DNA of 64,000 bases, from positions 133,393,203-133,457,202 of the forward strand of contig OY997588.1 of the NCBI GenBank assembly GCA_963921825.1, read 5' to 3'. Below, piece after piece: positions 7,217 through 51,959 of the stretch. Under the pieces are notes generated by a model, which did no database searches, was not told the DNA's origin, and saw only the letters and a list, made by a program, of their open reading frames with translations. The DNA comes from Erodium maritimum. Its lineage: Eukaryota > Streptophyta > Magnoliopsida > Geraniales > Geraniaceae. The stretch's first letter is position 1. Every line of letters begins with the position of its first letter. Both the position numbers and the translations under genes were made by a program.

Positions 7217-10200
7217 TAAGAAACGCCCGCGGTCGACACCGGTCGAACCGGTGAAATTTGGGAAAAGTTGACTTTCCGCCGGAAAAGTCAACCGATGACT
7301 CCGGGAGTCATTCGGGACCTTTTCGGGACCCAAAAAGCTTAGTCGTCATTACAGTTAGCTTAGTTGGATCGTTTTCTTTCAAATATGTAAATTTGCGAAA
7401 AAGTCAAATCCGGGTCAAACGGGGTCGAATTAGGGGTTTTAGCGAACTAAACTAATTGAGCTGGGATATTTTGGGTAGAGGTGGACCCCACATGGACACA
7501 TGTCCATGGTGTTTTGGAGGAGAAGAAAAGGGTGGAAAAGGACCATTTAACCCTCATTTTTGGGCCTAAAGAAGAAAGTAGCACCAAAGGTATTTTGGGC
7601 ATTGCCCTTTTAGGTTAAAGGGCCACTTGAGAGCATTTTCAGCTCATTTTAGCTAGCTTGGCCGAAATTTAGAGAGGGAGAGAGAGTGAAGCCTTCATTG
7701 CTTGAAGAAGAAGAAAGTGAAGAAAGGAAGCTTCTTTGGGTGATTCTCAACACCAATCTTCTCCAAATTTACTTCATTCTCATCCCCTCTTCATTTCTAA
7801 GGTGAGTACCCATTAAAAACCCACTTCTAATGACTTTGGGGTTGTGGGTTTGGTAGAAATTGCATGAACTAGGCTTGGGTTCTAAGGATTTGAGGTTCTT
7901 CATGTTTAATTAGATGATTTGTGTAGAAAAGTGGAGATTGATGATGAATTTTCATTGAGTTTTGTTAATTGGATGAAACCCACTTGGGGTTTGAAGTTTT
8001 GGGACTGATTTTGGAGGTTTTGGAGGGCAACAATGGAGTTTTGGAGGTTGGAAATTCGTAGGGGACAAAGTTGAGGGAAGAAGAAGAAGGAGACCCTCTG
8101 AGAGGCACGGAAATGGCTTCTGACCGGCCCTCTGAGAGGCACGAAAAGCGTCTTTGACCGGCCCTCTGAGAGGCACGGAACATGCCTCTGACCGGTCCTC
8201 TAAGCGACCCGGAATGGGTCTCTGAAAGGCCCTCTGAGTGGCACGGAATGAGTCTCTGAAAGGCCCTCTGAGTGGCACGGAATGGGTCTCTGAAAGGGCC
8301 TTTGAGTGGCATGGAATGGGTCTCTGAAAGGCCATCTGAGTGGAATGGAACATGTCTCTGGATGGCCCTCTGAGGGGCATGGAACATGCCTCTGGAAGGC
8401 CCTCTAAGGGGCATGGAACATGTCTTGTTCCGGCCCGGTTTACTATCCGGTTCGTGTATTCTTGTCGGGGGTAATTCGGGTGTTTTATCTTTAAACCGCC
8501 CTTGAATTATTACTAATTGTATTACTTTGTGATCTGAGACGTTGTTCCCGAGCACGGCGGAGGAGGCTACTAGGAAAATCGTGATTCTTCGTGTTTGGAT
8601 AGCGGTTGATGTAGGGAAAAGTAGCGAATACCGGTTTAATTGCGGAAAGTTACTAGTATGCATATAGGTTATGAATTCTCGATATAATATAGAACCGTAT
8701 GTAGGATGTGAAAAACTAGCGTAGTCATATAAATATGAAACCACTTGCGGGCCAGGTCGTGCTCGTAAGTGTGGGAATTGTTGTGCTGTGGTATCACATG
8801 TGGGTCCCTGGTTGGGCCCGTAGGATTGTGTGTTGGTTGCGCTTGTTTGTGATTAGTAGCTTGTACTATTCGATATGTGGTATGTTTTGTTGGTAAATTA
8901 AGGATCATGATATGATATGAGAACATGGTACATGTTAGTGTGAATTATCACCTTGTGATATGATCGGGTGATTGATAGACCGATGTGGTGTGTTCGGTAA
9001 GATTTGTTCGGTATGGTATGTTGGTGTGGTATATTTGATATGATGTGTTTGAGGATTATGTTCCGGTCCGATATCGTGGCTGATGTTGTGTGTTCTGGCA
9101 CGATATGTTCTGAGGCGGTGTGTTCCGGTCCGATACCTATATCGATGGATGGTTCCGATATAGGATATCTAGACCGAGGCTTCCGGTATGATATCTATAT
9201 CGTGGAGGGTTCTGATATAGGATATCTAGACCGAGGATTGGTTCTGGTGCGATGCATGCATTGTATGTGTGTATTCTGGTACAAGATATCTAGAGCCGAG
9301 GAGGGTGTTCCAGAGCAATGTTTATACCGAAGAGAATTTCGGTATAGGATACCTATGCCGAGGTTGAGTTTCCGGTATGGCATGTGTGATGTGATTTGTA
9401 CCCCGTGCTACGGGAAGATATACCCGACCGACGGAAGATTTCGGTCCGCTATATTATGAGTTGTACCCCGATGTTGTGTGTTCCGGGAAGATGTCTAGGC
9501 CGATGTCGAGTTCAATACGATGTGGATAAGTCGGGTTATGGGAATCCGGCGCATTGCTCTGGGATACCAAGGATGGGCGTGGTTACAAATAATATTACTC
9601 TGTGTGTTGATCTGTTTTGGTTGTCGTGATTACTTATGCTTGTTATGTGATCTTCCGTAATTTGAAATACAGTTATACCTGAGTTCAGTGTATTGCCGTG
9701 CGAGTTCGCACATGTGGTCGGTTGCGAGATAACTGTGGTAGTTGTCTATCGAGAATTGATTGGGTGACAGTGGTTAAGGGCATAGTCAAGAAGAAATGCA
9801 TGAGTTCGGTTCAGTGTAGAGTTTGATTTACGGGTTGCTCCCAAGTGGGGGTCAAGCGTTGTCTTGGGTTACTTGTTTAACTGATTCGTTAGTTTTTGTG
9901 CTTACTAGTATGCCCTAATTGGACAATTACTCGTGGTGGTGAGCGGTTAGCTCATCCCCTTAACTACTTTTTCCTACTGAGCGAAAGCTCACCCCCTTCA
10001 TTACTGTTTTACAGGTTTCGATCGTGAGTTGGTTTAGAGGACGTCTCAGAGCTGGGGAGCCTGGCGAGAGTCCTTGGTTTAGGGTTGTCTAGCGACGTAT
10101 TTCCCTTTGTACTAGACTTCGTTTTACTATGGTTTTCGAGCGTCGACTCGGTATTGTTAACTTTAAACAACTTATTGAAGCTTTATTTCGTTTAAACTTG

Positions 10201-10265
10201 TTTTATTTATTATTATTTTTAGCTCACGTCTCGAGTCTGATCAAAACCGGATTTGGGGCGTGACA
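7217..10265 (+). mobile_element. solo LTR of a Ty3/gypsy-type element (fossil)
   Basis: The element starts TGTAAGAAAC and ends GGGGCGTGACA. It is flanked by a perfect 5-bp target duplication, cttgt, at 7212-7216 and 10266-10270. The end GGGGCGTGACA is shared with the LTRs of the complete chromovirus at 48979-61860, and both begin TGTAA, so it belongs to the same broad group (Tekay/Del-like) but a different family. No internal coding region is present, so this is the product of LTR-LTR recombination. Inside are a 34-bp tandem array (8094-8433) and a looser ~60-bp repeat around 9130-9260 with shared GATATCTAGACCGAGG. The long minus-strand ORF across the 34-bp array is a product of the repeat, not a gene. 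Confidence 0.9.
8094..8433 (+). repeat. 34-bp minisatellite, about 10 units, inside solo LTR
   Basis: About ten consecutive 34-bp units run end to end. Each starts CCCTCTGAGNGGCACGGAA-like and ends TCTCTGAAAGG or TCTGACCGG. Units diverge from one another by a few bases. The unit carries a CCGGAATGGG/CACGGAATGGG core that recurs in the LTR at 37186-38735 and at the window's right end. Confidence 0.9.
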
Positions 10266-10456
10266 CTTGTTAAAATTCTCGTTTTTAAAATTCAATATAG
10301 TTAAGTGAAAAAAATATAAATATTAGTATGATTAAATAAAAAAAATATGTGGTGCATTGTTGTGAGAGAACATAATTCTATCCATCCTAAAATATGCTTG
10401 TCCGCTATTTAAAATGAATGTTTATAAATAATCATCTTATTTATTATTTTGTGTAT

Positions 10457-11087
10457 GATTTTTTTAAACGTGACGACATAGAATTTTATTAATAATTTCG
10501 ATCAATCGTTTAGAAAAATGGGTCAAGGACCCTAAGTACCATAAATATGTCTAAGATCCCAGTAGGATTCCCAACTCTCTTGAAACTGTAAAAACGTCTA
10601 ATTTCCATCTTAGACAACAAAACTAAAGCGTACAAAGAATTGAAGCAATAATAAAACACATAAAACAGTAAATCAATCCATGATCAAAGTTTCCTAAGGA
10701 TCCTTGAAAAGAGATGCATAGATGACTACTCGAACGTCTCATGATAGATCTTGTTTTACGGATCTTGGGATGCTTTGCATGGAAAGGGTTGGTCGGCATA
10801 TCGTCTTTAAATTTTGGGATAACCCGGGATGGGGTGTTGTGGAATCGTACATCATCTTACCGTCTCACCCCACGGATCCCAAAACCATCTAGTAATTGTC
10901 GCGTAAAAGGCGACAATGAAGGGGGAAGACAAAACTCGCACCTAACATTCATCGGGGGATCTCCTTAGCCCTAGCACGATGGGCATGGCTCTCCTCTCAC
11001 CATGAGGAGGGTGAACTTGATAGCACCGGAGATTGAAGAAGCATTTATGGAAGAGGAAAACTAAAGTCGACTAGTCCTTACACTTTT
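10457..11087 (-). mobile_element. non-autonomous L1-like retroposon, ~630 bp
   Basis: A T-run followed by AAAC at the left edge (about 10458-10468) is the complement of a 3' poly(A) tail, so the element points to the minus strand. Flanks carry a probable 10-bp duplication, ttttgtgtat, at 10447-10456 and 11088-11097. The body shares blocks with copies at 18-20 kb and 47 kb, for example the GGTGT(C/T)GTGGAA...CCATCTTA(C/T)CGTC region near 10831-10867. No intact protein is present. Confidence 0.65.
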
Positions 11088-11097
11088 TTTTGTGTAT

Positions 11098-12330
11098 TAA
11101 GTCAAGACTCTTTATCTAGTGATCAGAACAAAGATTCATGTTTTTATTTCATCTAATCAATTAATAGTAAGTGATCATACAAGTAAACATTGTTTGTAGA
11201 CATGGGAAATTTATTAGTCATATTGAACAAAACCAGCATAATATCACATTTAAAAAAAACCCAAAAAGATTCATAATTATTGATAAATCATAAGGGCCAA
11301 ACACACATTGAATAATATAAGTGGCGTGTCTATCGATTGTTCTCGAAAATCCGAGGGACGACTAGCGAGATGAATATCTCTCGAAAAGGATGACACATCG
11401 TCTAGATAAACAACTACTATAAAGTCGGCATTTCTTATCGGCTACCCGGAGAGATGCATCAAAAGAAAGACCCAACTATACATACTACTAGAGGCAACAA
11501 CGACACCTACTGGAGATTCAGGACACAGAGGAACAACAAAATACAAACAACATAAACAAAATAAATAACAAAAACAACAACGACAAGCATAAACTACTCG
11601 CGGTCGGCCTCCGATTCTGGAGTGAGGAGGGCGGCGCAGGCGGGTACAGATTTGACCCGCTTAGGGTTGGTACACGGTTTTGGTTGGGTAAACACGATAA
11701 GAAGGAGCAAGGTAGAACAGCTCATGTTGCGATATTTCGACAGAAGGTGGGTGTAGATCTGACCGTCTAGCAGGAAGAGAGGTGTGGGGGATAGGAGAGG
11801 AGAGGCTAGAGTCGTAGTCATCGGGAGGTAAAGCTGGAGGGAGGAGCAAGCAGTCGACCATTATCGTTGTCGGGAAAAAGGGTTGGGGAAGGGGCAGAAG
11901 GGCGTTGGGGCAAAGAGGGGGTGGGTCTGGAAAAAGACTTTTCGGAGAAGGCCAAAGGAAGACGAGTCTCACAGAGGAGGGTGATGGGTGACAGATCAGA
12001 CCGTAAGGATCAGGGAAGGGTGGATCTGGTCTGTAGAGGGCGACGAAAGAAAGGGAACAGCGATAGGCGGTGGTCGCGGACCGAGCTCTGACAACCATGA
12101 TCTATGGTGGTGTGAGTTTGACGACAAAATGTAGAAGGTAGAGGAAGGGAAATGAGTAGAAGGAGGGCCACCAGCAACTACGGCTGAAGTCACTATACCC
12201 ATCGGCAACAACAAGATGTTGCGTTGAAGACGTGTAGGGTTTTATTGCAGCTTTGGGTTTACATGACATCAACCTAAATTTGCTACTTCCGGAAAAACAC
12301 AAATGAAGTACACATTTTGTCTTTGTATCG
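11098..12330. other. intergenic stretch with GC-rich repeat remnant
   Basis: The left part (11100-11580) is AT-rich and shows nothing I can name. The part at about 11590-12230 is GC-rich. On the minus strand it resembles the proline/serine-rich 5' regions of the L1-type copies elsewhere (11.6-12.1 kb against 19.6-19.85 kb). Open frames here overlap on both strands and look accidental. Probably the 5' end of an old retroposon; the assignment is weak. Confidence 0.3.
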
Positions 12331-35393: not shown

Positions 35394-35403
35394 TTGGATG
35401 TAG

Positions 35404-35469
35404 GAGGCGAAATCAGCTGAGAACCACAATTAACGTTGGAACTGTGAGAACTCATCTGATCCGTCCATC
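35404..35469 (+). repeat. MULE left terminal inverted repeat
   Basis: Pairs with 46815-46881. Conserved blocks are GAGAACCAC, GGAACTGTGAGAAC and the inner CCRTCCATC. Identity is roughly 75% by eye. Confidence 0.9.
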
Positions 35470-36067
35470 AACAGCAACCAACAGCCCAGATCAAACCTTC
35501 AGCTCCTTCCTATTTTGCACGCTTCTTCATCAACGCAGGGGTAAGACCGTCAATTCGACATGCTTCTTCCTCCTAATATCAGTCATCGCAGTCATTGTTG
35601 TCGCGCGATTCAAACAGTTTCGCGCTTCTCTCTCACCAATTCAACTGCAAAACAGGTCAGAAATCTTTGCTTTCATGATTTGATGATCATACAAACACAT
35701 TCGAGCGACAATTCTCTCTTCTCTACAACCTGAAAATCGTGCTCTGTTTTTCTTCTTTTACTGTGCATCGCAAAATTCAGCTGTTTTGTCGACGGATCAA
35801 GCTCAAAAACTGGTGATAATTTCCTTTCCACTTCATTAGATCTTCATGTAATCAATTCGACAAACAAAATATCAAAAATAAGCTTGTGATTCAAAAATTT
35901 GATATAATGCTCTGTTCTACGGTTTATCGACTTTTTTCTGCGAAATCATCTTGTTTTTCGCCAGATCAACATGTCTGTGACTGTGATAAACATGTCCAGT
36001 CGTGCTGTAGAGAAATCGTTGAGAAAATTACGGTTTCTTAGTGATAAAACCTAACTTCAAATCGCTT

Positions 36068-36420
36068 TACGTTGATAAATGTAAGGTTAATAGTTGATAA
36101 ATGACTCAGGTCTGGTGCTTGTCTGAGTTGATAATCGATGCAGACACGTGTTGTGTTGTCTGACAACGTTGATAAATCTGTACTTAAGTTGTTGATAACT
36201 GTAAGGTTAACAGTTGATAAATGACTCTGGTCTGGTGCTTGTCTGAGTTGATAATCGATGGAGGCACGTGTTGTGTTGTGTGACAACGTTGATAAATATA
36301 TGGTGTTACGTTGATAACCGAGGCATTAAAGGTTGATAATTGACTGCGATGTGCTGGTGTTTGTCTGACTTGATAACCTGAGCATAAACATGTTGTGTGG
36401 TCTGATAAGATGATAAATCT
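36068..36420 (+). repeat. ~120-bp tandem repeat upstream of the transposase
   Basis: Two well-kept units (36068-36170 and 36189-36290) share GTAAGGTTAA, GTCTGGTGCTTGTCTGAG and CACGTGTTGTGTTGT, and a third, more diverged unit follows to about 36410. Each unit carries three to four of the TGATAA motifs plus a CACGTG box. Confidence 0.85.
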
Positions 36421-36604
36421 AGGGCGTCTAGTTGATAAATTTAGGTCTAGGATTGATAAATCCTGTGAACTGATTCTTGTCTGAGTTGATAACCTATGCA
36501 AGCACATGTTCTGTTGACTGAAAATAGTTGATAAGCCTAATGTGTTATGTTGATAAAATACACGTTCGTGAGTTGATAATTGTGTATGTACATGTGATGC
36601 AGTG

Positions 36605-39600
36605 ATGGGAAGCTTGGATCATGATGATGTAGAGTTCGGATTCGAATATGAAGATGACGACGAGACTGTTACAGAAACTATAAGCACTCAGAAAGTTTGG
36701 ATCCCTGAATGTGGTGATGAGTTAAAGCCTCGGAAGAATATGAACTTTTCCTCCTTGGAGGAGGGAATTATTTTCTACCAAACGCACGCGTTAAATTGTG
36801 GGTTTGGGATACGTCGAGGCGCTGAGAAGAAAAAACCAAGGAGTAACACAGTCTTTTTTTAAGTACATCTACTGTGCAAGACAAGGAGAACCATTTGTAG
36901 GAGAAATCGAAGGATGTAGCAATGACAAGATAAGAAAGAGGTCTAGAATGTCTACACGAACATGTTGTATGGCAAGGATGTCTTTGAAGGAAACTGAAAA
37001 TGGATATACTGTATATGAGTTCAGAGAAGACCACAACCACCCGTTACAGTGTAAGCGTGATTTCCAATATCTGAGGTCAAATAGGGATTTATCAGCAAGG
37101 CACAAGCAATTTATTATAGACTGCTCAAAGGTGAAATTGGGAGCTACGAAGGCGTTCAATCTTTACAGCCAAATAATTGGGGGTCTGACGCCCTGAGAAT
37201 TAACTCACAAAAAGGGCGCGGCAAGCGCACCGGTCGTCAAGTAGTATTTCGGTTCAAGTCCGGTTATCGTACCCAAAGGAGCAATAAAACAGTCACTCGA
37301 TTTAAAATCCGTTAGTTAATCTGTTTCTGAAAAGATTTGGTTTTGGTTTTGAAAATTAATTGAAAAATTGAAATGCCAAGAAAAATAAAGTATGATCAAG
37401 TAAAAGACAAAATATCAGTTTGTTGTGAAATTCAGAGGAAGAGGTGATCTAGGGCTTTTGACGGGGTCACAATATGACTATTGACTCGCAGGGGTTTGTG
37501 TTTACATGTGCAAATAAGGTAAGTCTAAAGGTAACAGAAGTTCTCTCAGCTGGTCTTAAACATCTTTCGATCGAATTAGGTCCCTAGTATAATCTGACCA
37601 CCTAGTTATTTCTAATCTGGGTGTAGTGAGACATACAGCATTACGATTCATGAACTCCTCTAACTTTCGGTTTATACGCCTATAGTTGTTACACTCGTGT
37701 TAACCTAATTTTATTAGAGACTAGATTTAAACCCGAGTTACATAATCCTTAGTCCTTTTAGACACTCCCAGCTTTCGATTATTGAGTGCTAAAACCTAAT
37801 CAACTATCAAGTGATCAATTTGATGAAGCATTAATTCCAAATTATGTAAACAATATCCTAAACACAAATTGCACACAATAACCACAAACCCATTGAATTA
37901 ATTCATCGTATTGCTTCCCCTAGCCCTAGATCGATGGAAATTTAGTTCATGGAGAAGAAGGAAGAACACAAAGATGAAAAAGAACAAGAGATAAACATAA
38001 TTGAAAGGTAAAGTTGATACAAAATACCAATTCAATGATGAAACTTCAATAGTTTTGCTTCAATCCTTGTTCCTAAGCACTTCTCTCTCACCAAATCTCA
38101 AACTCTAACTCTCAATCTCTCTCAAATAATGCCCATACCAGACCTTCCCTTTTCTTAATGGATGCTCTTCTATATATAGGACTTCAAGACTCCCCACTCC
38201 AAATCAGAATTGGAATAGGTAAATTTGGCTTTTGAATGAGGAAATTTCCTATTTTTATGCCAAAAACGGAGCTGGGAGAAGGCCTGACGCGTGTGGCCCG
38301 GAGCGTGGCCCGGAATGGGCCCAAAAACGGCCCGGAATGTGGTCCGGAACGTGCTGGAAACCGGCCCGGAATGGGCCAGAAACCGTGCCGGAATGAGGGC
38401 CGGAACGGGTCTCTTCCCGTATCAGAACAGTTATGGTCCCTTGACGAAAGTTGTAGATCTTTGAATGCTCTTCGATTTGATATATTATTTGAAGCAATTC
38501 GGAATTCGTATGAGGGATTTATTCCCTTTGCAAAATCAGCCAGCTTCCAAAACTCCTAAAACCGAATTTTCCTTTGTTTTAGCCCTTTTTTCGATGAAAG
38601 CACCTACAAAACACAATGAGAGACAAGGTACGAGTATAGAGAGAAAAGTGCACCAACTTGTACAACCCCGGGACTAAAGAGCTCAATAATGTGGGCTAAA
38701 AACATCCAAAACCGATGCATTTTATGCCTACATCAGGGTCCTAGCAAAGTAGGAGCATGTCCAACTGACTTCAGGAACTTCCAGCGGGATCTCAAAGTGT
38801 ACATTGGAGAGAGTGATGCGCAGATCACAATCGACCAATTCCATACTAAAGAAGATTATTCTAGCGACTTCTTCTTTGAGTACAAAGTAGATGCTAGTGA
38901 CCGACTAAGTCACCTTTTTTGGGCTGATTCAAGGTCGAGGAAGGATTACGAGCTCTTTGGTGATACGGTATCGTTTGATTCAACTTATCGATCAAACAGG
39001 TAAAATCATTCCTCAGTGTATAATAAAATTTGTTGTTACTTTGATAAACCATATTGTTTCAGTTGACAACCCTGAATCTGGGAATGATAAACCATATTGT
39101 TTCAGTTGACAACCTTAATCTGGGAATGATAAAACCTTGTTTGAGGCTTGATAAAAAGTCACTCTCTATTGATAATTTATTTATTTTTGTTGCAGATACT
39201 CGATGGTCTTTGCACCATTCACTGGGGTGAACAACCATAATAAGTCAATCATATTTGGGGCAGCTTTACTAGCCAAAGAGGATGCCGAATCTTTTGTTTG
39301 GTTATTCCAAACATTCCTCAAAGCTATGAAAATGAAAGAACCGATCTGTTTTATAACTGACCAAGACCCAGCAATGAGAAAAGCTTTTGAAGAAGTGTTC
39401 GCACAAAGTAGGCATTGCCTGTGTATGTGGCACATAATGCAGAAGCTTCCTTCTAAAGTAAGTTTCATTTTGAATTAATATAGTGATAAATTACAAGTTA
39501 GGAGGTGCACATTTGTTTGGTCGAGCGTCACAAATATGTTATTCTTCTTCCAGGTGCCTCATAATGTATACCATGAGACAAGTTTCAAGAAGAAATTTAA

Positions 39601-40876
39601 GGCATTGGTGTGGAGTAACTACACTGAAACAAATGAGTTTGAGCTGAGTTGGAAGTCTTTGATGGAAGAATTCCAACTACATGATCACACTTGGTTGTCC
39701 TCTATGTTTAAAATACGAGATAAGTGGATCCCTGCATACTTCCGAGGACTGAAAGTGGGTCTATTCCTTAGGACTACATCAAGATGAGAGAGCGAGAACA
39801 GTGCATTTGGTCAATTCACTAACATGTACCTTTATGATTGATAAAATGAATCATGTGTTATTGATAAATTATGAATTCTTAATTGATAAATATTTATGTT
39901 GAGACCATGTTGTTTGCTGATTCTATAATTTCCTGTGGTGATAAATGTTTAATGAAGAACTGATAAATTATGGAGTCCTGATTGATAAAATAACTTGTTT
40001 TCCAGGTGTCTTACGCTGGTTGAGTTCATGTGGCGTTTCGATACAGTCGTTGAAGGTCATAGACAGAAACAATTACAGCTGGACTTCCAATCAAGCACCT
40101 TAGCTCCAAACTTCTTGTTATTATCTGAAATTGAGAAGGACGCTTGGAGGATTTACAGCCGCTCAATCTTCGACATCATAAAGAAAAGTGTGGTGGGAAA
40201 AACCATCAGGTGTGGGATCAAAATTTGTGTTGAAGAGGATGGAAAGAAGGTATATAACATCGCAAACAAACATGGGAACAAGACGTTTGTTGTTGTGCAA
40301 AGCTTACCTGGGAACCATTGCACATGCTCTTGCATGAGATTTGAAGGATTTGGCATCCCTTGTATGCATATTTTCTTGGCTTTGCAAGCATCTATGGTTG
40401 ATCAAATACCGGAGAGCTTGATCACGCAAAGATGGACAAAGGATGTACGCAAGAATGCTGAAAACTCTAGAGATTCTGAAGAATTACAACCATCTGCCTA
40501 TGGTGAGTGTAAGCAAATTATATCAGACATATGCTCGATGCTTCAGTCTTGTGTCCTCCATCCAGCAGTGAACGCTGCAAAGTTGAATGAACTTGTAGAA
40601 CAAGTAAAGGACTTCAAGAAGCAACTGAATGATGATGAAGCTGATGATTTTGAATCAAGCACAACGCATGAACTTCAGACTTTAACAGGGCTTTCTAAAC
40701 CTTCACAAGTTATTGTCAAGCTCCCACAACAATCAAGGACAAAAGGCTGTGGAAAGAGAATACAATCAGGGATGGAAAAGTCCATAGAAGAAGCTAAGAA
40801 AAGGAAGCGCACTTGCAAGGTTTGTGGTGAACCAGGACATGACATTAGGAAATGTCCCCAGAATAACAAAGAATGA
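36605..40876 (+). pseudogene. FAR1/FHY3-type MULE transposase, interrupted
   Basis: Exon parts: 36605-37185 and 38741-38999 (one exon, split by the solo LTR), 39196-39457, 39554-39825 and 40006-40876; about 745 codons, normal for the family. Order: acidic N-terminus; FAR1 DNA-binding zinc domain (FSSLEEGIIFYQTHALNCGF, later the HNHPL end); MULE DDE domain with first Asp in FDSTYRSNRY, second in FITDQDPAM, and C/H block CLCMWHIMQKLP; SWIM zinc finger (CTCSCMRFEGFGIPCMHIF); C-terminal zinc knuckle (CKVCGEPGHDIRKC). Lesions: one extra T in the T-run near 36854-36860 shifts the frame after the FAR1 start, and codon 39785-39787 is TGA where relatives have Ser (TTSRSESEN context). The reading frame matches on both sides of the LTR insertion. 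Role: binds and cuts the element's ends. FAR1/FHY3 light-signalling factors were domesticated from this family. Confidence 0.9.
37186..38735 (-). mobile_element. solo LTR inserted in the MULE transposase gene (fossil)
   Basis: 1,550 bp, with ends TGACGCCC...CTACATCA on the plus strand (TGATGTAG...GGGCGTCA on minus). A perfect 5-bp duplication, gggtc, lies at 37181-37185 and 38736-38740. On the minus strand the sequence after the middle looks like a transcribed leader. The element is from a different LTR family than the chromovirus. The nested piece at about 59555-60707 belongs to the same family. Contains a run of CCGGAATG-type units at 38295-38405. No internal genes remain. Confidence 0.9.
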
Positions 40877-41669
40877 AGTGATAAATCTTTTAGTTCTGTT
40901 GATAAACTGTGTTCAAAATGTTGATAATAGGTGTGTTTCTTACTACTGACTCTGTCAGGTTCACAACCTGTGCAACGTTCAAACTTTATTGATAAATTCT
41001 TCAAGTAGTATTGGTAAAGTCTATTTCTAAGGTTGATAAAAAGAATATTATTCTTACTTATGTCTGTCTGTGTGGTGCAGAACAGTTGATAATTCCCACT
41101 GGATTAGACATGATAAATCTGTTCAAGCAGTTGTTAATGTCTTCAGACATGTATGATAAAAGTCAACTTCAAATCATAATTAACTCTGGATATAAAATAT
41201 ATCCAGATGAACTGATAATACCTGAGAAACTAGTTGATAAAGCAAGTTATTTAGTTGATAAATCTGTTCACGCAGTTGATAATATCTGAACACATGTATA
41301 ATAAAATCAACTTCAATCCAGATGAACTGTTAATGCATGAAAAAAAAAGTTGACAAACACAAACACATACAGTTGATAAACCCAGTTGTCAGATCTGATA
41401 AGGCATTAAACCTTTCAGGATCATTCTTGTCCACAAAAAAACTTAACACATGTATGTACATTTCATACAACCTGTTTCCACCCATAAAACTAAAGTGATC
41501 ACAAAGTCATTACACCTTCACCAAAATATAAACCACAACACACAACATTGTTTTTGTCATCTACCAAGTACTACCCGGTTCTTTCCAAAGAACCTGAAGA
41601 TACTCCATCGTCTTTAGTTTGTTCCTTCATCTGGCAATAACTCTTAATCCTTGTCTCATTAATTATCAT
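40877..41669. other. spacer between the converging MULE genes
   Basis: Holds about 15 TGATAA motifs to 41400 and a ~140-bp-spaced duplication (CTGTTCAAGCAGTTGTTAATG at 41119 against CTGTTCACGCAGTTGATAATA at 41265, each followed by an AAATCAACTTCAAATC-like block and CCAGATGAACTG). The 92-codon open frame at 41011-41289 follows this repeat and has no recognisable domain. 41400-41660 shows nothing further. Confidence 0.6.
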
Positions 41670-44600
41670 TCATGTGCTGCTTGGGTATGTGCAGAGCTTC
41701 ATGAGATAGCGATGCCTCAGGTTTGCTATTTGATCAGCCTATATGCACACAACAAAAAACCAAAACTAGTTAAATCCGTAGCAACAAAATATACGAAAAG
41801 ACCAACAACATATACAAAAATATGATCTTACATTGTTTTTTAACATTGGATACCCCCAGGCACTGCCGCTCTGACCCATATATCGTTCCATGTGGAACAT
41901 ACAATACACACCGCAGTCGATCTTGTTGGCGTTGCTGCTCCAGTCTATCTTCAGACACCTTGCACTTGCATTTTTAATTTTCACCGAGAGTGTAGCGTCA
42001 TGCTTTTCCAGAAATGCAGAAATCATATTCTTTTGCCGATTATAGAAAACATACACATATTAGAACCTAAAAAGGTGCATAATTTAATAACTAAATTACA
42101 TATATACTTACCAAATTGGTAATTCTGTTGCCATATTTGGACCTAAAGTTCGACCCCTCCAAATTATCAATTATAGAAATACTAGGTTTCTTCATATTGA
42201 TGCACACCAAGTAATAATGATTGCATGCATGAATTGGGAAAAACACCTGTAGTTGATAAATGAACCATACCAATGTGGTTACACACATGCACAAAACTAT
42301 AAGTATAGATAGACCAAAAAAATAGAGGGAGATTTATTACCAAATCAGTGGCAGTGATATCCACATGCGGGTACATACCCAACTCGATTTCAATTTGTTC
42401 AGCCCAACTTCCACTCTTTGAATCGGTTAACCCAACCTAACAATAAAAGGGATGCACAATGTTATACAAATTCCAACATTACTCTTATTAAAGAGACAAC
42501 AACTTACACTTGCATATGGTGTGAAAAAAAAAACCTCGAAGGTTCGTCTGGTGTTCTCTTATCTTCGACGCAATTAAGATAAGCTGCCTATCCAATAAGG
42601 ACACCCATCTTCAATTCCGACCCCACTCTCATAGTGCACAGATCCTTTCTCATCACCCCTAGATCACCATCCATTACCTCAAACACCATATCCCTGCAAA
42701 AAAACACATTTGCATATAACTTGACAGTATTGATAAAATGTCCAGATGAGTTGATAAATCAGTTCAGGATTGGTTGATAAATTTGTCAAAGATAGGATAA
42801 CAAAATCTAAAATTAAAGTTGATAAACCTAAATAACAACATTGATAAAATGTTCAGATAACATTGATAAAAAATGTACAGACATATTAAAAAGGCAATAT
42901 TTCATAAAAATGAGTTATGGTTAATAAAATAAAACACAGAGTTGATAAACCTACAAGACAATATTGATAAAAATAAATTAAAAGAAAGGCTAGCACAATA
43001 CCAGTCATCTCCCCGCTTATCGTTAAGAAGCCACTCCATCCACATTTTCTCTTCTTCAGTTAATGGAGAATCCACATCTGTCATTCTTGTGTCTGACATT
43101 TCCACTGCAACTTCCTTCCTTGTTGGCCTTGTCTTTGTACTTCCGGATGATCTCCTGGATGATCTCTCTTGTTTCTTCTATTTACCCTTCTTTCCGCTAG
43201 CTACATCTTCACATACTGCAATTCCTTCATTGATTACTGGCCTTTTCTCAATACTTCCAGCCGTTCTCTCCTGTTCTTTTTCTTTGCCCTTGTCTAAACT
43301 GAGCAAACCTTCACACGCTTCTCTCCATATCTCACTAACTTCCTCAAGCCCTAGGCTGAGTGTTGGCATGCCACGACCTTCTATCTCCACTCCATTAACC
43401 TCTTCCTCAACTCTCTCAACTTCCTCAACCCTCGCATTAACATCATCTACAACTTGTTCTCCTACATCAACAGCTCCGCCCTGTTCACTAACACTGTCCC
43501 CTCCTAACCCCGCATCAACATCTTTTCCTAACTCTGCCACCTCTTCCACTATCTCCTCACTCACGTTGTTATTTTCTACCCCAACACAATCAGTTTCAAC
43601 AGTCTCTCTCTCTCTTGCAACATGTTGACCACTACTCTGACTGGTCACTTTAGTCGCAGCCTTCATCGCTGCTTCAAATGCTTTGATAACGTCTGGATGG
43701 TTAAAAAAACGGTCCTATCAGGACTCTTCAATATCATGCTCAGGTTGAGCCCCCAACATCTTGTTGACAGCATCGTGCAGTCTCCTAACAGTGACGGTAT
43801 CAGAGAAGTTTGAAATGGCATTTCTAATGGTTTCCTTGAAAGCCACAAAGCATTCAGCAAGCTGTAATGCTTGATTCGCCAAGTTTACAATGCATTCCTA
43901 CAAAAGTTTCAACAAAAAAATGTCAGCGTTAACACAAAAATCATCAATTTCAAACACAAAGTATTTTGATTATACCTCTTGTTGTACTCCGGGAATGACA
44001 TTATCTATTTCCTTCGGCACGTACGGGTCTTTCTCGATATAACCTTCCCCGAACGAGGCATACTTCAATTCAAGAAGCTCCCGATTTTTCAAATGCTCAC
44101 TTGTCCAACCTATAACAGATGGTTGGGCCCTATCGACAGTTCTTTTCTCTAGAACTACACGATCGACATAGTAAAGCTGCACAACACCAAAAAAAAAAGA
44201 ACATGTGACTTCTGCTAGTGATAAAACCATGAAACAGATATGATAAAACATGGGTTAACATTGATAAAAAGGGTGAGATCAGAAAATAAAACATGTGACT
44301 TCTGGCAGTGATAACATCACTTAACTGAGATGATAAAAATCAGTTCTGTGATGATAAAACACACAGCCATGAAAAGGGAGGTCAGAACACAGAGATGATA
44401 AAAACATTGTTTAACAGTGATAACATCATTTAACTGAGATGATAAAAATCAGTTCTATGATGATAAAACACACAACCATGAAAAGGGAGATCAGAAACAG
44501 AGATGATAAAAACATGTTTAACAGTGATAATATCATATAACTGAGATGATAAAAATCAGTTTTATAATGATAAAAACACAAAATGAAAGGGAGATCAGAA

Positions 44601-45719
44601 AAAAAAGACAGACTAACCATAAAAAAAGTCATTGGACCGACATAATACTTCTCTCCGGTAACTGATTTCTCCCACTTCTTTTGGCTTTCAAGGAAGCCAT
44701 CAATAACATATGAACACCAGTTGTACTCCGCAATAGTATCTGGATCCTCAATTCCATACAAGACTGCGTGATTCACATAGCTCCTACTTATGCCTTCTAC
44801 CATCAGTGTAGAGAATAAGACCAGAAAATTCCATTTGAACATTGCATATCTTCCCCTTTGATTCTTCATTTTATCGATCACATTTCCCATCGTCACATGA
44901 AACACCGAATTCGCCTTCTCGAACTGCTCAAACCACCGCTCAACAACTGGACAATTCTCAGTCCGCCTTGCAACAATTGGACGCCCCCCGAGGGGGATCC
45001 CCAATGTCTCCCAGACATTTACATCGCTGACATGTAAAAACTTGTCCTGCCCAAGTTTCAGACACCTACTACCAGTATGGAAATTACTCGCAAGAAAAAA
45101 CCCCAAGGCTTGGGGTAATTCCTTCACTCGCAGCTGAAAAAGGCTAGAAAACCCCATCTCAAAGATAGCCACCCTCTGATCATCTGTCACACTCTCTAGG
45201 AAATTTACCAGGGATTTTGGTGATGTCCTGATCTTCAACCTTCGAACACCATCCCCCCTAGAAACCACAAGCTCTTTCTTGCTCTTCTTTGTCGGTGGAA
45301 TTGCAACATCTTCACCCTTTCCCAGCCCCCTCTTCTTCACAGGGACGACATCAAGTTCCATCGATGGAGCCGCTCCTACATTATCTTCAGCATTAGGAGG
45401 TGGTGGAGTTGATGAACCTTGCCCCACATTATCTTCAGCATTGGGAGCGGTTGGAGTTGACGAACCTTGTCCTATGTCTTTTCCTGTTTGACTACGAGTG
45501 ACTACCGCTGATGAAACCTCTCCTGCTGGATTGGGAGGAACTTTGATCTTGACAGTGAGCTTTTTGGCTTTCCCTGTACACATAAAAATCATAAAAATCA
45601 ACTGAATAATCATCACAAACACCAAGATAAAAAAACAATGTTTAAATAATTCAAAACCCTTTACCTGGAATCATATCCTTCAGCAGCATTGAATCATTAT
45701 TCTCATTAATCTTCACCAT
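41670..45719 (-). pseudogene. ULP1/C48 SUMO-protease-like gene of the MULE, interrupted
   Basis: Exons on minus: 45719-45665, 45573-44618, 44176-43976, 43897-43002, 42693-42510, 42436-42341, 42246-42112, about 42045-41832 and 41738-41670 (stop 41672-41670); roughly 930 codons. The N-terminal half has the SPKSLVNFLESVTDDQ...IFEMGFSSLF...DVNVWETLGIPLGG block common in ULP1-bearing plant transposon proteins, then an acidic/glutamate-rich middle. The C-terminal half is a C48 cysteine protease: His in NHYYLVCIN, Asp in SISIIDNLEG, Cys in KIDCGVYCMFHMERYM. The catalytic triad is thus kept. Lesions: adjacent in-frame TGA and TAG near 43724-43719, TAG near 43181, and TAG near 42590; the phase into the eighth exon is unclear. 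Such proteins may remove SUMO from host or transposon proteins. Its role in transposition is not established. Confidence 0.85.
44300..44600 (+). repeat. ~110-bp tandem repeat in ULP gene intron 2
   Basis: Three units starting near 44303, 44415 and 44521 share CAGTGATAACATCA(C/T)TTAACTGAG, GATGATAAAAATCAGTTCT and CATGAAAAGGGAG. Each unit holds about four TGATAA motifs in plus orientation although the host gene is on minus. Confidence 0.85.
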
Positions 45720-46814
45720 TTTCTGAAAACAAAACACATTGATACACAAAAAGTGAGCAATCAAAGCTTAGAGTGACTGATAAAATACATGAACACATGT
45801 GATAAACTGTGAATTCAGAGTTGATAAAATACATAGATGACAGACAATCATTCATACACAAAAGGTAAAAGCAATCAACTTACAACTTGATAAATTACAT
45901 GCAAGCAAGTTATAACATGTGAAGACACAGTTGATAAAACAGATATATGACAGAACAATCATTTATCCACGAAAAGTGAGCATCATACTTATAAAAGTTC
46001 TTGATAAATTACATGCACTCTGTTGATAAATGTACAGACATAGTTGATAGAACACATAAGACGGAACACACAAATCTACATAGTTTCAAACAACTAACAC
46101 TGACCATGCAGATGATAAATCATGACATGCAATTGATAAAAATGACGTCCAATGTTGATAACATAGATTTAACCACCTGTAAGCAACCAAAGCCTATGTG
46201 TAATCGATAGATCACATAATATACTTGATAAAAATCAAGAAAAGTTGACAAACATAGAAAAACATATCACAACCAAAGACACATTCACTCAAACATGCAT
46301 CAAAACACTAAAAACAGAGTGCATGCAACTTCAAATATGTTCTTCCTCTCTAAATCGCACAAATAAACATTCAGAAGCAACTAAATCAAGTATCGAGCGC
46401 AAAAATTAGGTCAAAAATCGACTGTTCTTAACAAAAAATCCCTAAAATCAGTAACACCCACAGCAGCCAAAATAAACTTAAAATCAAAGGAATCAGAGCA
46501 ACAAACCTTCAGTAGAACTCGAAATACGCTTCGATTTCACACGATTTGCTTCAACCTTCAACCACGCGCAACAAATCTGGAGGACGAACACAGAGAGAAA
46601 AGGAGCGAAGAAGACGAACCGAGAGAAAAAACTGAGGGAGTCGATTGCATGAGACGGTTGCTATTTAGTGTGTGTAAGGAGAGATATAAAATTACCCCTA
46701 AACCCTCACCAACACAGCGATATTACAAAAATGCCACCGAAACTGCTGTTTTTTTTCAACAATTGAGTCAACAAGTCAACTGTTCAACTTTGCATCTAAG
46801 CCATCCATTCTTGA

Positions 46815-46881
46815 GATGGATGGCTCAGATTGGTTCTCACAGTTCCTATCTTAAGAGGTGGTTCTCACCAGATTTCTCCTC
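46815..46881 (-). repeat. MULE right terminal inverted repeat
   Basis: Complement of the left repeat. A short palindromic pair (CCATCCATTCTTGAGATGGATGG, split as CCATCC / GGATGG arms) lies at its inner edge, 46801-46823. Confidence 0.9.
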
Positions 46882-46968
46882 TTGGATGTAGTATTAAAAT
46901 GTCAATATATCAAATTGGGAGATTAATTATAAGGGATAGTTTCAATTTGTTATCTTAAAATATTCTTG

Positions 46969-48978: not shown

Positions 48979-51959
48979 TGTAATAACCACTTCCGGTCAA
49001 CGCCAGTCAAACATGCGAAAAACGGGAAAATTTAAAAATTTTAAGACAGACACTAAACTGAACCTAAATTGACCCCGAGGGTCATACCGGACTTAAGTTG
49101 ACCCCGTTATCGACCAAAATGAGTTCCGGGGACTCAAGGCAACTTTCTGATCAATTTGGGAAATGTTGACTTTTCGCTGGAAAAGTCAACCGAGCGACGT
49201 TTTGGTCCATTCGAGGACCGTTTTGGACCCGAAAAGCTTAGCCGTCGTCGTAGCGGTCTTAGTTGAGCCGTTTCCTTGAAGCCCGTCAAGTTTCGTAATT
49301 TCTTGGGAAAAGTGCCCGTTCGGGGCCCGAAACGTCCGTTTTTCGCAAAACTGATTGAAAAATATCAACTAGATATTTTCCAAAAGCTGTGGGACCCACC
49401 TTGACACATGTCCTAATTGTGGTGGTGTTAGTTTTTTGGGGAAACTAGATGGGACTATAGGGTGGCCGGCCATGTGGGTTAAAAGAGAAAAAAATAGAGT
49501 TTGTTGTTAGTTGTTTTAAATTAGAAAGAAGGAGAGAGTGTTTAGAGAGAGAAGGAGAAGGAGAAGAAGAAGAAGAAGAAGAAGAAGAAGAAGAAGAAGA
49601 AGAAGAAGAAGAAGAAGAAGAAGAAGAAGAAGAAGAAGAAGAAGAAGAAGAAGAAGAAGAAGAAGAAGAAGAGAGAGAAGAGAGGGAAAGCTAGGGTTTG
49701 GGAGAGTTCAAGCCTTTGGATCGTCTCAAGACAAAGAGAAATCGTCTTCCCCTCGTCCTCCTCGTTGGTAAGACCTAACCCGATCTTCGTTTTGTTAACT
49801 TTGGAAAGTTAAGGTTTTGTATAACACTATGGGTTAGGGTTGTAGTGAGTTTGGGGGTTTGTTGGAGACGTTTTAGAGGTGGTTGGAGGTGTTATTGGAC
49901 GTTTTCCGGTGACCGGAGACTCGGGAGGAGCTCCGGCCACCATGGGTGGTGGCCGGCCGGCCATGAGTTGGCTGGCCGGAGCTGGCACCAGCCACCACAT
50001 GGTGGCCGAGCCCCTCCCCTTGAACCCTAGGGAACGGCCAAGTATTTTGGGTGGGGCCCACGTGCTCGGTTGCTCGGGTTATAATGTTCGGGTGGTTTAA
50101 AACGTTCCTCGGACCATTTATCCTTAATCGAATCGAAATTTGGAATTAAATTGGAGAAGTTGCAATTAACGGGTTTTAGAAACTTTAAACGTTAATAATT
50201 TGACTTAGAAGTCGGAATTCGATTCCGTCAAGTGCGTTGGGTTCCTTGAAATATTCTAAGACCGTAGAAACGAAAACGGGGGCTTTTGGAGCCCCGGAAG
50301 GCAATTATTGAAAATCCGGGCAGATTCGCCATGTCGGGCTAATCGGGCCTTTAAGGGTCCTTTATCGACAATGTCGAGTAATTGGGAAGTTTGGGAGTGA
50401 TCGTCATTATCGGGGTTACGTTTGGGCGTTAAGTTTATTGATTTTCGGTTTTTTCGTAATAGTTTAAAAGTGCTTTAAAATTGTGTTCTTTTAGATCGTG
50501 CTGCGGACCGAGGCAAAGGGAAGCTCGGCGAGTGACTGTGTTTACATCGAGGTTTAGTGGAGCGCTTTTGGAGTGTTATACGAGGTAGGGAAAAGTAGCC
50601 GGATTTCAGAGCGAACAAAATCGACCGTTTTATCGATCCTTAAGCACGAAACACCCAAAATGCATCGGAAATCCATCAAAACACCGAACATATCGATAAA
50701 ATCAATTATTCATGCTAAAACTACATATATGATAGAAAACCGGGACCAAAAGCCTGTAAACTCGATATAATGTGGCCCTTTTACGTGTTAAAATGCACCT
50801 GCATCAGTGGCCTTGAGAGCCCGTGTTAATTATTGTTGAGTTTGGGTGGCCTTGAGAGCCCGTGTATTTAAATTGGTGTCTTGGGTGGCCATGAGAGCCC
50901 GTGTATTTAAATTGGTGTCTTGGGTGGCCATGAGTGCCCGTGTTTTACCGTTGGTGTGTCTTGAGTGGCCGTGAGTGCCCGTGGGGTCGTTGAACCCGAG
51001 TTTGACCGTTGGTGTGTCTTGAGTGGCCGTGAGTGCCCGTGGGGTTGTTGAACCCGAGTCTTGACCGTTGGTGTGTCTTGAGTGGCAGTGAGTACCCGTG
51101 GGGTTGTTGAACCCGAGTCTTGACTGTTGAGGTGTCTTGAGTGGACTTGAGTGCCTGTGTGATTGAACTTACCTGTGATTGTGATTGTGGTTACCTGAAG
51201 TTGTGAGTTCGAAAGGTCGACAGCCTGATCCGACTTAGTGTCGATGAATTGCGATAGGTCGACAGCCTGATCCGACTTAGTGTCGATGAACTGCAAAGGT
51301 GGACAGCCTGATCCGACTTAGTGTCGATGAATTGCGATAGGTCGACAGCCTGATCCGACTTCGTGTCGAGGAATTGCGATAGGTCGATCCTGGACCTGAT
51401 TGAGATTGGTTACTGAGCAGCTGGTGTGCGATCCTTTGTGATCTTGTTTGGTGTTGTGTAGTCTTTCTGTCACGTCCTTGGAGGAGGTCGTCTATAGTTG
51501 TGTCGGGTCTACATTACTTTATCGAGTGTTGAGTCTGTTGAGGAAAGTAACGGGTTGTGGGTCAGTTGGGTACTTGAGTTGGGGATTGTAGTCCCGGTGT
51601 TGGGTTTGGTTTTAGTGTTACTGGCTTTTCTGCTAATTATGCCATAGTCAGTCTGTTATCCGTGGAGGTAAGCGAACACTCACCCCTAACTGCTTTTCCT
51701 ACAGGTACTGATCACCGGACGGACTAGGTTAGCTCTTGAAGTTCATGGAGCTTGGAGCGGAGTCTGGTCTTTATTTTGTTGAGTCTAGTGGCGGATATTG
51801 TACCTTGTCCACTTGTTGGGACGTTTTTGTATTGTAAATATTATTATTTTTGAGAACTAAATGGAAATGTCAATGCTTTTATTCAAAACAGGTTCAAGTG
51901 TTTTTATGTTTTTAAATGTTCGCGTCCCGAGTTCGGTTTACTGAAATTGGGGCGTGACA
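48979..51959 (+). repeat. 5' LTR of the chromovirus
   Basis: 2,981 bp, TG...CA ends. Contains a (GAA)n microsatellite at 49553-49672, and towards its 3' half two repeat zones: about 50805-51150 (units around GAGTGGCCGTGAGTGCCCGT) and about 51215-51385 (units around GACAGCCTGATCCGACTTAG). Open frames over these zones are repeat artefacts. Confidence 0.95.
49553..49672 (+). repeat. (GAA)n microsatellite in 5' LTR
   Basis: About 36-38 uninterrupted GAA/AGA units. The same place in the 3' LTR (58228-58246) has only about four. Translation gives a poly-arginine ORF, which is not a gene. Confidence 0.97.

Follow-up and report, generated by a model that had tools for sequence, protein, structure and literature searches.

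A one-stranded box array with 22-bp pitch in a FAR1/Jittery-type Mutator-like element of Erodium maritimum, a probable anti-silencing target

Introduction

Why does a plant transposon carry some eighty copies of one short word on a single strand of its noncoding DNA? The question is raised by a 64,000-bp stretch of the Erodium maritimum genome (contig OY997588.1, positions 133,393,203 to 133,457,202 of the forward strand; hereafter the window, to which coordinates below refer). In it, a Mutator-like element (MULE) at 35404-46881 carries two convergent genes, a transposase on the plus strand and a gene with an Ulp1-type protease domain (ULP) on the minus strand. A sequence-only reading had recognized about 80 same-strand motifs with the core TGATAA in this MULE and had likened them to the target motifs of VANC proteins, which remove silencing from Arabidopsis VANDAL elements. 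Here we describe number, orientation, spacing and conservation of these boxes. Their best explanation, albeit unproved, is as probable targets of anti-silencing, arrayed in a MULE of FAR1/Jittery type with terminal inverted repeats (TIRs), a class assigned by domains.

Results

TGATAA boxes occupy one strand of the noncoding element DNA

TGATAA occurs 83 times on the plus and three times on the minus strand within the MULE, versus 16 times on each strand in the remaining 52.5 kb of the window, where it is thus as sparse as had been stated. The 4,945 bp of noncoding element DNA contain 82 plus-strand sites and one minus-strand site, in line with the earlier estimate; one site of each orientation lies in the ULP exons, a single minus-strand site in the transposase exons and none on either strand in a foreign insertion that interrupts the element. 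The box TTGATAAA is found 37 times in the MULE, always in plus orientation. In 500 dinucleotide shuffles of the noncoding DNA, TGATAA reached a mean of 4.6 and a maximum of 13 occurrences, and TTGATAAA a mean of 0.5 and a maximum of 4, so that the word is both enriched and one-stranded. The strand excess of any 6-mer did not exceed 15 in element-free 5-kb segments (every second segment listed, those touching the MULE excluded), compared with up to 37 for TGATAA here. The near absence of the word from exons, which the sequence-only reading had taken for avoidance, does not hold up as depletion: exons contain one plus- and two minus-strand sites, with 1.8 and 2.0 expected from 300 shuffles. Since exon counts are at chance level, the pattern is one of noncoding enrichment.

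Noncoding boxes span 35814 to 46231, leaving the outer 410 bp on the left and the outer 650 bp on the right devoid of boxes, and 49 of the 82 are located in introns and between the genes. Upstream of the transposase gene, 22 TGATAA sites form an array at 35814-36579, many of them within a 120-bp tandem unit. The transposase introns contain arrays of five (39042-39175) and six sites (39839-39988) as well as a single box (39484-39489), and 14 sites lie between the convergent genes (40879-41401). The ULP introns harbor a single box (42254-42259) and two arrays antisense to the gene, one of eight sites (42731-42970) and one of 14, partly within a 109-bp tandem unit (44219-44573); a further array of 11 sites is positioned upstream of the ULP gene (45778-46231). 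All of these arrays are on the plus strand, despite the minus-strand ULP gene, just as had been claimed. Around the core, G is preferred at -2 (43/82), T at -1 (51/82) and A at +7 (61/82), and one-base variants of TTGATAAA are rare (0-2 occurrences) unless the change falls on the first or the last position. Twenty noncoding sites read AGTTGATA, which has AGTTG in common with the motif of VANC6. Rfam returned no match at gathering score in the window.

Neighboring boxes recur at 21-23 bp

The boxes are regularly spaced, a feature overlooked in the sequence-only reading. Among 81 successive intervals, 12 measure 21 bp, 25 measure 22 bp and four measure 23 bp, adding up to 41 intervals of 21-23 bp, whereas random placement in the same noncoding regions yielded a mean of 3.5 and a maximum of 11 such intervals in 2,000 trials. 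The preference is found outside the tandem arrays (23/50) and in all five noncoding compartments: the 5' region (9/21), transposase introns (6/11), the region between the genes (6/13), ULP introns (15/22) and the right side (5/10). A pattern of three boxes in register matched at six places in the window and at none in 100 shuffles. Spacer sequences show hardly any relation to one another (31.8% identity versus 27.8% after shuffling). In gaps spanning two intervals (n = 12), the best box remnant was in register in five cases, compared with a shuffled mean of 1.5 (P 0.009), and in four of nine after removal of duplicates (P 0.018). A strict helical lattice was rejected, as intervals outside 21-23 bp fall uncleanly on multiples of 10.5 bp.

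Boxes are retained in diverged copies of the element

Copies were searched over the genome of the window (763 Mb, 40 contigs) with the 5' array (36000-36600) as query; arrays in introns and on the right side lie outside this query. The search listed 51 matches including the window's own, a lower bound in which several matches belong to one copy, and 20 stretches of 10 kb were fetched for comparison. Boxes and their spacing were kept in all 20 stretches and a single orientation in 19, with 28-93 plus versus 2-7 minus sites. The earlier expectation that the motif would persist in related copies is thereby substantiated, and outcomes that would speak against it, namely equal strands, lack of enrichment or lack of conservation among related copies, were looked for and not seen. 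The remaining stretch (L147, C6:32854091-32864090) contains two opposed arrays of 19 and 30 sites with 21-23 bp intervals on both strands; these appear as nested or inverted copies of the family.

Across all 20 stretches, 927 of 1051 box hexamers were intact, compared with 6122 of 10037 control hexamers. In L145-L148, where noncoding identity is down to 66-72%, the corresponding numbers were 83 of 113 boxes and 139 of 825 control hexamers of like composition. Copies were grouped by divergence into seven close, six mid and four distant ones, with L130, L133 and L137 left out. In close, mid and distant copies, respectively, boxes mismatched at 1.1, 2.1 and 4.7% of aligned bases, 22-bp spacers at 7.9, 16.8 and 36.8%, noncoding DNA outside arrays at 3.9, 8.1 and 22.2% and exons at 3.2, 7.9 and 14.4%; boxes are hence better conserved than exons among the four distant copies. 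Several properties of the data bear on these values: boxes scored are those intact in the window copy, losses on its own branch being uncounted, and box divergence may be understated by up to about twofold because of that choice; BLAST alignments favor box-to-box alignment; and the copies share ancestry and are not independent.

The 22-bp spacers (window 36073-46156) diverge 1.7 to 2.1 times faster than noncoding DNA outside arrays, through scattered single changes rather than block replacements in the copies viewed. This fast divergence possibly reflects escape from small RNAs or less constraint. Spacer indels are rarer in close copies (0.3 versus 0.5% per base outside arrays), and reach 1.4 and 4.4% in mid and distant copies versus 1.1 and 2.0% outside arrays. 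Selection on exact spacer length is not supported by these rates, because spacer indels are not rarer in mid and distant copies.

Two adjacent stretches together contain a distant element that is complete at both ends (73% and 77% identity) and whose ULP gene has diverged; it contains 83 plus and six minus sites, with 34 of 82 intervals at 21-23 bp. Ends were inspected in five chosen copies: L129 (7.4 kb), L130 (4.4 kb), L136 (9.4 kb), L137 (3.2 kb) and L144 (9.6 kb). The flanking 10 bases match completely in L130 and L136 and at nine positions in L129 and L144; the match is not clear in L137 with its AT-rich surroundings. L137 (C9:51443757-51453756) is an internal-deletion derivative that keeps only element positions 1-1434 and 9746-11478, such that both outer arrays are retained and of both genes only the starts are left. 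Between positions 513 and 2654 of its stretch, 33 sites share one strand, and one opposite site (TTATCA) is found at 623. Retention of the outer arrays agrees with an array that acts in cis and relies on protein from another source.

Limits and genes of the element

The limits given in the sequence-only reading were corroborated by a perfect 10-bp target-site duplication, TTGGATGTAG, at 35394-35403 and 46882-46891 and by TIRs, identified via inverted-repeat search and alignment. The left TIR of about 66 bp (35404-35469, plus) consists of two matched blocks and pairs with the right TIR (46815-46881, minus); identity is 83% in block I1 and 76% in block I2, and I2 extends into the target duplication.

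The transposase gene (36605-40876, plus) encodes FAR1 DNA-binding (PF03101, 3.7e-8), MULE (PF10551, 1e-23, improving to 1.5e-29 with exons joined) and SWIM zinc finger (2.2e-5) domains according to Pfam, as well as a weak zinc knuckle under the cut-off. The marks of the Jittery group are thus present, namely a FAR1 N-terminal part, a MULE core, a SWIM or CCHC C-terminal part and terminal repeats, an assignment made by domains. Its exons, with limits set by eye as for the ULP gene, lie at about 36605-37185, 38736-39000, 39196-39459, 39553-39823 and 40006-40876. The first exon is interrupted by a foreign insertion of 1,550 bp (37186-38735), probably a solo long terminal repeat (LTR) as judged from boundary bases, with TG...CA ends and a 5-bp duplication GGGTC. 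The probable solo LTR inserted after the MULE had landed; in the other copies with listed top matches extending to this point (e.g., L129-L136, L138 and L141-L143), the alignment stops at about element position 1782 and restarts at about 3333. Without a single box, it serves as a natural control. A JGI hypothetical protein on a 2,743-bp contig (P0018) corresponds to a partial transposase with 82% identity over one third of the query; therefore, a close relative of the MULE exists in another sample.

The ULP gene (41833-45719, minus) encodes a C48 (Ulp1) protease domain (Peptidase_C48, E 1.5e-7, Pfam), a variable region with peptide repeats and an N-terminal region. Exons lie at about 45665-45719, 44618-45573, 43976-44176, 43002-43897, 42511-42693, 42341-42436, 42112-42246 and 41833-42041, with an uncertain 3' end; part of 40877-41832 may be transcribed, because the last ULP exon or exons are uncertain. 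A 48-bp tandem repeat within the ULP coding sequence (45378-45469) yields a NAEDNVGQGSSTPPPP-like peptide repeat. Both genes of the window copy are broken, which had been overlooked before: the transposase by a frameshift, an insertion and a nonsense codon, the ULP gene by several in-frame stops. Elsewhere in the window, an oriented CTCTGA cluster with steps of 12-46 bp (8096-8368) and an AGAAGA run of 22 copies (49550-49681) were observed.

Selection on the ULP gene and its relatives

In six comparisons between subfamilies, the ratio of nonsynonymous to synonymous substitution rates (dN/dS, computed on sets that include dead copies) of the ULP gene was 0.30-0.45 for the conserved N-terminal part, 0.42-0.69 for the variable parts and 0.29-0.53 for the protease part. 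The ULP gene, including its C48 protease part, is under purifying selection between subfamilies. The transposase yielded 0.23-0.40 in the same six comparisons and 0.18-0.40 in 14 of 16 comparisons overall, with 0.67-0.68 in two among distant copies. A search with the whole ULP protein produced no match among 7993 candidates. For residues 128-440, one relative was found among 1574 candidates, an Ulp1-family protein of Artemisia annua with 30% identity, which likewise is without a DUF1985 match. Scans of bacterial and archaeal genome contigs and one viral-contig scan revealed no relatives. A pattern scan of viral contigs matched at least 120 stretches, which play no part in the present account.

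Discussion

The boxes constitute an oriented code at the DNA level. This conclusion is well supported, because their strand ignores gene directions, they are kept across diverged copies and the gene-depleted L137 keeps its outer arrays; the preference of the sequence-only reading for DNA over an RNA or codon effect was therefore justified. Judging from the sequence, it is fairly probable that the boxes act in cis as a binding array, recognized by an anti-silencing protein of VANC/KIU type that the element itself encodes. By analogy, the earlier idea of a VANC-like motif with an element-encoded binder is plausible. The binder is probably the ULP protein, most likely through its N-terminal part, and we prefer it over the FAR1 transposase as the putative binder because the terminal 410 and 650 bp are free of boxes.

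A mechanism along these lines would start with protein from intact relatives, likely the N-terminal part of ULP (C48), binding boxes side by side, with bound neighbors two helix turns apart on one face of the helix. A high local density would let the protein load cooperatively on members of its own family and leave stray single boxes free. Once bound, it might remove or block silencing marks over noncoding DNA, as VANC does on VANDAL elements, and such relief would allow family members to express their transposase and ULP genes; a SUMO-linked silencing factor may be the target of the protease domain.

A broader proposal, which we put forward tentatively and regard as possible rather than probable, is that sequence-specific anti-silencing arose or spread outside the VANDAL clade, in a FAR1/Jittery-type TIR-MULE. 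The agent would be a ULP protein whose N-terminal domain differs from DUF1985 and which assembles cooperatively into a filament along boxes spaced by two helical turns. If true, the fixed-pitch array would be the recognition code that separates the element from stray single boxes, and a cooperative filament would explain kept boxes and spacing beside freely drifting spacers, perhaps escaping small RNAs. The 22-bp pitch, conserved over diverged subfamilies of one genome, would provide a concrete rule of spacing and helical face for own-element recognition. It would thus address the open question of how a VANC-type protein singles out its own element from many others, in a transposon clade for which anti-silencing has not been shown in the literature compared. 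The ULP genes of plant MULEs, widespread yet unexplained, would gain a possible function as well.

Several observations weigh against an anti-silencing array bound by ULP. Phasing beyond neighboring boxes is weak, as the faint peak among 30 intervals of 24-110 bp lies at 11.6 bp instead of 10.5 bp, and steps of 34 and 41 bp recur within the 120-bp unit. Among the closest copies, ULP dN/dS rises up to 0.98, on few changes. The N-terminal part of ULP (463 aa) has no Pfam match at E <= 10, DUF1985 included; because such a match is lacking, homology to VANC/DUF1985 is not supported. AlphaFold models of the N-terminal exon are unusable, with a mean predicted local distance difference test score (pLDDT) of 36 for the exon alone and 31 for two sequences. 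The 5'-array query favors copies that keep boxes there and misses those without a 5' array. Traces of methylation are faint: relative to a majority reference built from nine close copies and the window, the ratio of C-to-T changes in CG to those in CHH context is weakly lower near boxes (2.15) than in other noncoding DNA (3.55) and exons (5.34), and selection on exons may cause the CG difference. Pairwise, CG change in noncoding DNA is below that in exons in six of seven copies, L129 showing the opposite. The direction of CG change fits lower CG methylation at the arrays. This is a hint only, because raw CG rates differ little (23/558 near boxes, 37/783 in other noncoding DNA, 102/1757 in exons) and exon constraint lowers the CHH rate.

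The alternative that survives best, albeit an unlikely one, is that the boxes bind the FAR1/SWIM transposase, as internal or subterminal sites for transposition complexes or self-regulated transcription. Its FAR1 DNA-binding domain and the purifying selection on its gene (dN/dS 0.18-0.40 in 14/16 comparisons) argue for such a role, as do the internally deleted L129 and L130, which keep arrays between flanking duplications matching at 9/10 and 10/10 positions. The box-free terminal 410 and 650 bp are, however, where a transposase must act, and 49 of the 82 boxes lie in introns and between genes.

Recruitment of a host factor, such as a regulator of GATA or I-box type, for expression or open chromatin is unlikely. 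TGATAA matches the GATA consensus WGATAR and the I-box core, and a dense array stands upstream of the transposase. Other WGATAR words, however, are not enriched in the noncoding DNA (AGATAA two plus and no minus sites, AGATAG three and one, TGATAG one and none, versus 82 and one for TGATAA), and to our knowledge neither a fixed strand in the introns of both genes nor a 22-bp spacing would be expected of host promoter sites. A cluster of GATA-factor sites was rejected, given degenerate WGATAR sites without enrichment. A strand-marking code for replication or recombination, for example an oriented origin or a Chi-like sequence, would agree with one strand being fixed over about 10 kb and is quite improbable; in the window, the one-stranded pattern is limited to noncoding DNA of a single transposon, unexpected for a host replication code.

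We consider it very improbable that slippage and tandem duplication merely spread a functionless box-bearing unit. Boxes are contained in tandem units of 120, 109 and 43 bp, an ancestral repeat unit could account for the 22-bp interval, and the decayed boxes in register (five of 12 two-interval gaps, four of nine without duplicates) would be in agreement with such a history. Boxes are nevertheless kept while spacers are nearly unrelated, differ less than other columns both in the 5' tandem array (2.8% versus 34%) and in the ULP-intron array (11.9% versus 28.7%), and surpass exons in conservation in four distant copies. Pure slippage was rejected: equal decay of boxes and spacers was checked among copies, and the rates are very different. 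The slight chance of an RNA-level role, be it as branch points for splicing, in phased small RNAs or in stabilizing transcripts, draws on the 21-22 nt size of phased small interfering RNAs and on TTGAT, which resembles the branch-point consensus. It founders on box orientation, which is sense in the introns of the transposase and antisense in those of ULP, on boxes present upstream of both genes, and on intervals that mix 21, 22 and 23 bp. A codon or RNA effect was rejected, box orientation being independent of gene direction.

Comparison with known systems

In geometry, the arrays resemble the iterons of plasmid origins, direct repeats of a short site about 22 bp apart on one strand that are bound side by side. 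The analogy is one of geometry only, as proteins and role are unrelated.

The closest likeness is to VANC systems. For VANDAL21/VANC21 and VANC6 of Arabidopsis thaliana, Hosaka 2017 (PMC5735166) describes a short motif, dense in noncoding DNA and in one orientation, within tandem repeats that turn over, and proposes motif density as the basis of own-element recognition. Shared with VANDAL/VANC are the MULE, the dense noncoding motif in one orientation and a candidate protein, encoded by the element itself, in which variable regions with repeats accompany conserved ones, the NAEDNVGQGSSTPPPP-like peptide repeat of ULP recalling those of VANC proteins. In both, boxes lie in tandem repeats that diverge within arrays and between copies; here, many also lie outside such units. 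The window MULE differs in its box, TTGATAAA instead of YAGTATTAY for VANC21 or AGTTGTCC/AC for VANC6 (PMC5735166), in its FAR1-type transposase with SWIM and recognizable terminal repeats, in a ULP protein without a Pfam DUF1985 match, and in the strong 21-23 bp spacing. Neither Hosaka 2017 (PMC5735166) nor Sasaki 2023 uses the terms spacing, helical or periodic in its main text, an observation on those texts and not a claim that the pitch is unpublished.

According to a 2026 review (PMC13317346), Ulp1-bearing VANC genes (KAONASHI/KIU) also recognize motifs of their own families, and Arabidopsis KIU elements are non-TIR MULEs of the VANDAL group. With these, the window MULE shares a ULP (C48) gene antisense to the transposase; unlike them, it has terminal repeats and a FAR1 domain. 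In grapevine, ULP genes are described from MuDR-like and Jittery-like MULEs, TIR and non-TIR, in both orientations (PMC2528002). The Jittery-like ones resemble the window MULE in having the ULP gene downstream of the transposase, and differ in that the available part of this source mentions no motif array for them. In a published table (PMC6446971), the FAR1 N-terminal part marks the Jittery group and is not listed for the separate VANDAL group, some relatives of which have terminal repeats. Same-strand motif clusters and ULP-bearing VANCs are thus already described in Arabidopsis, and what is apparently new is the carrier, a MULE of FAR1/Jittery type that has terminal repeats, together with its box TTGATAAA and the pitch of 22 bp.

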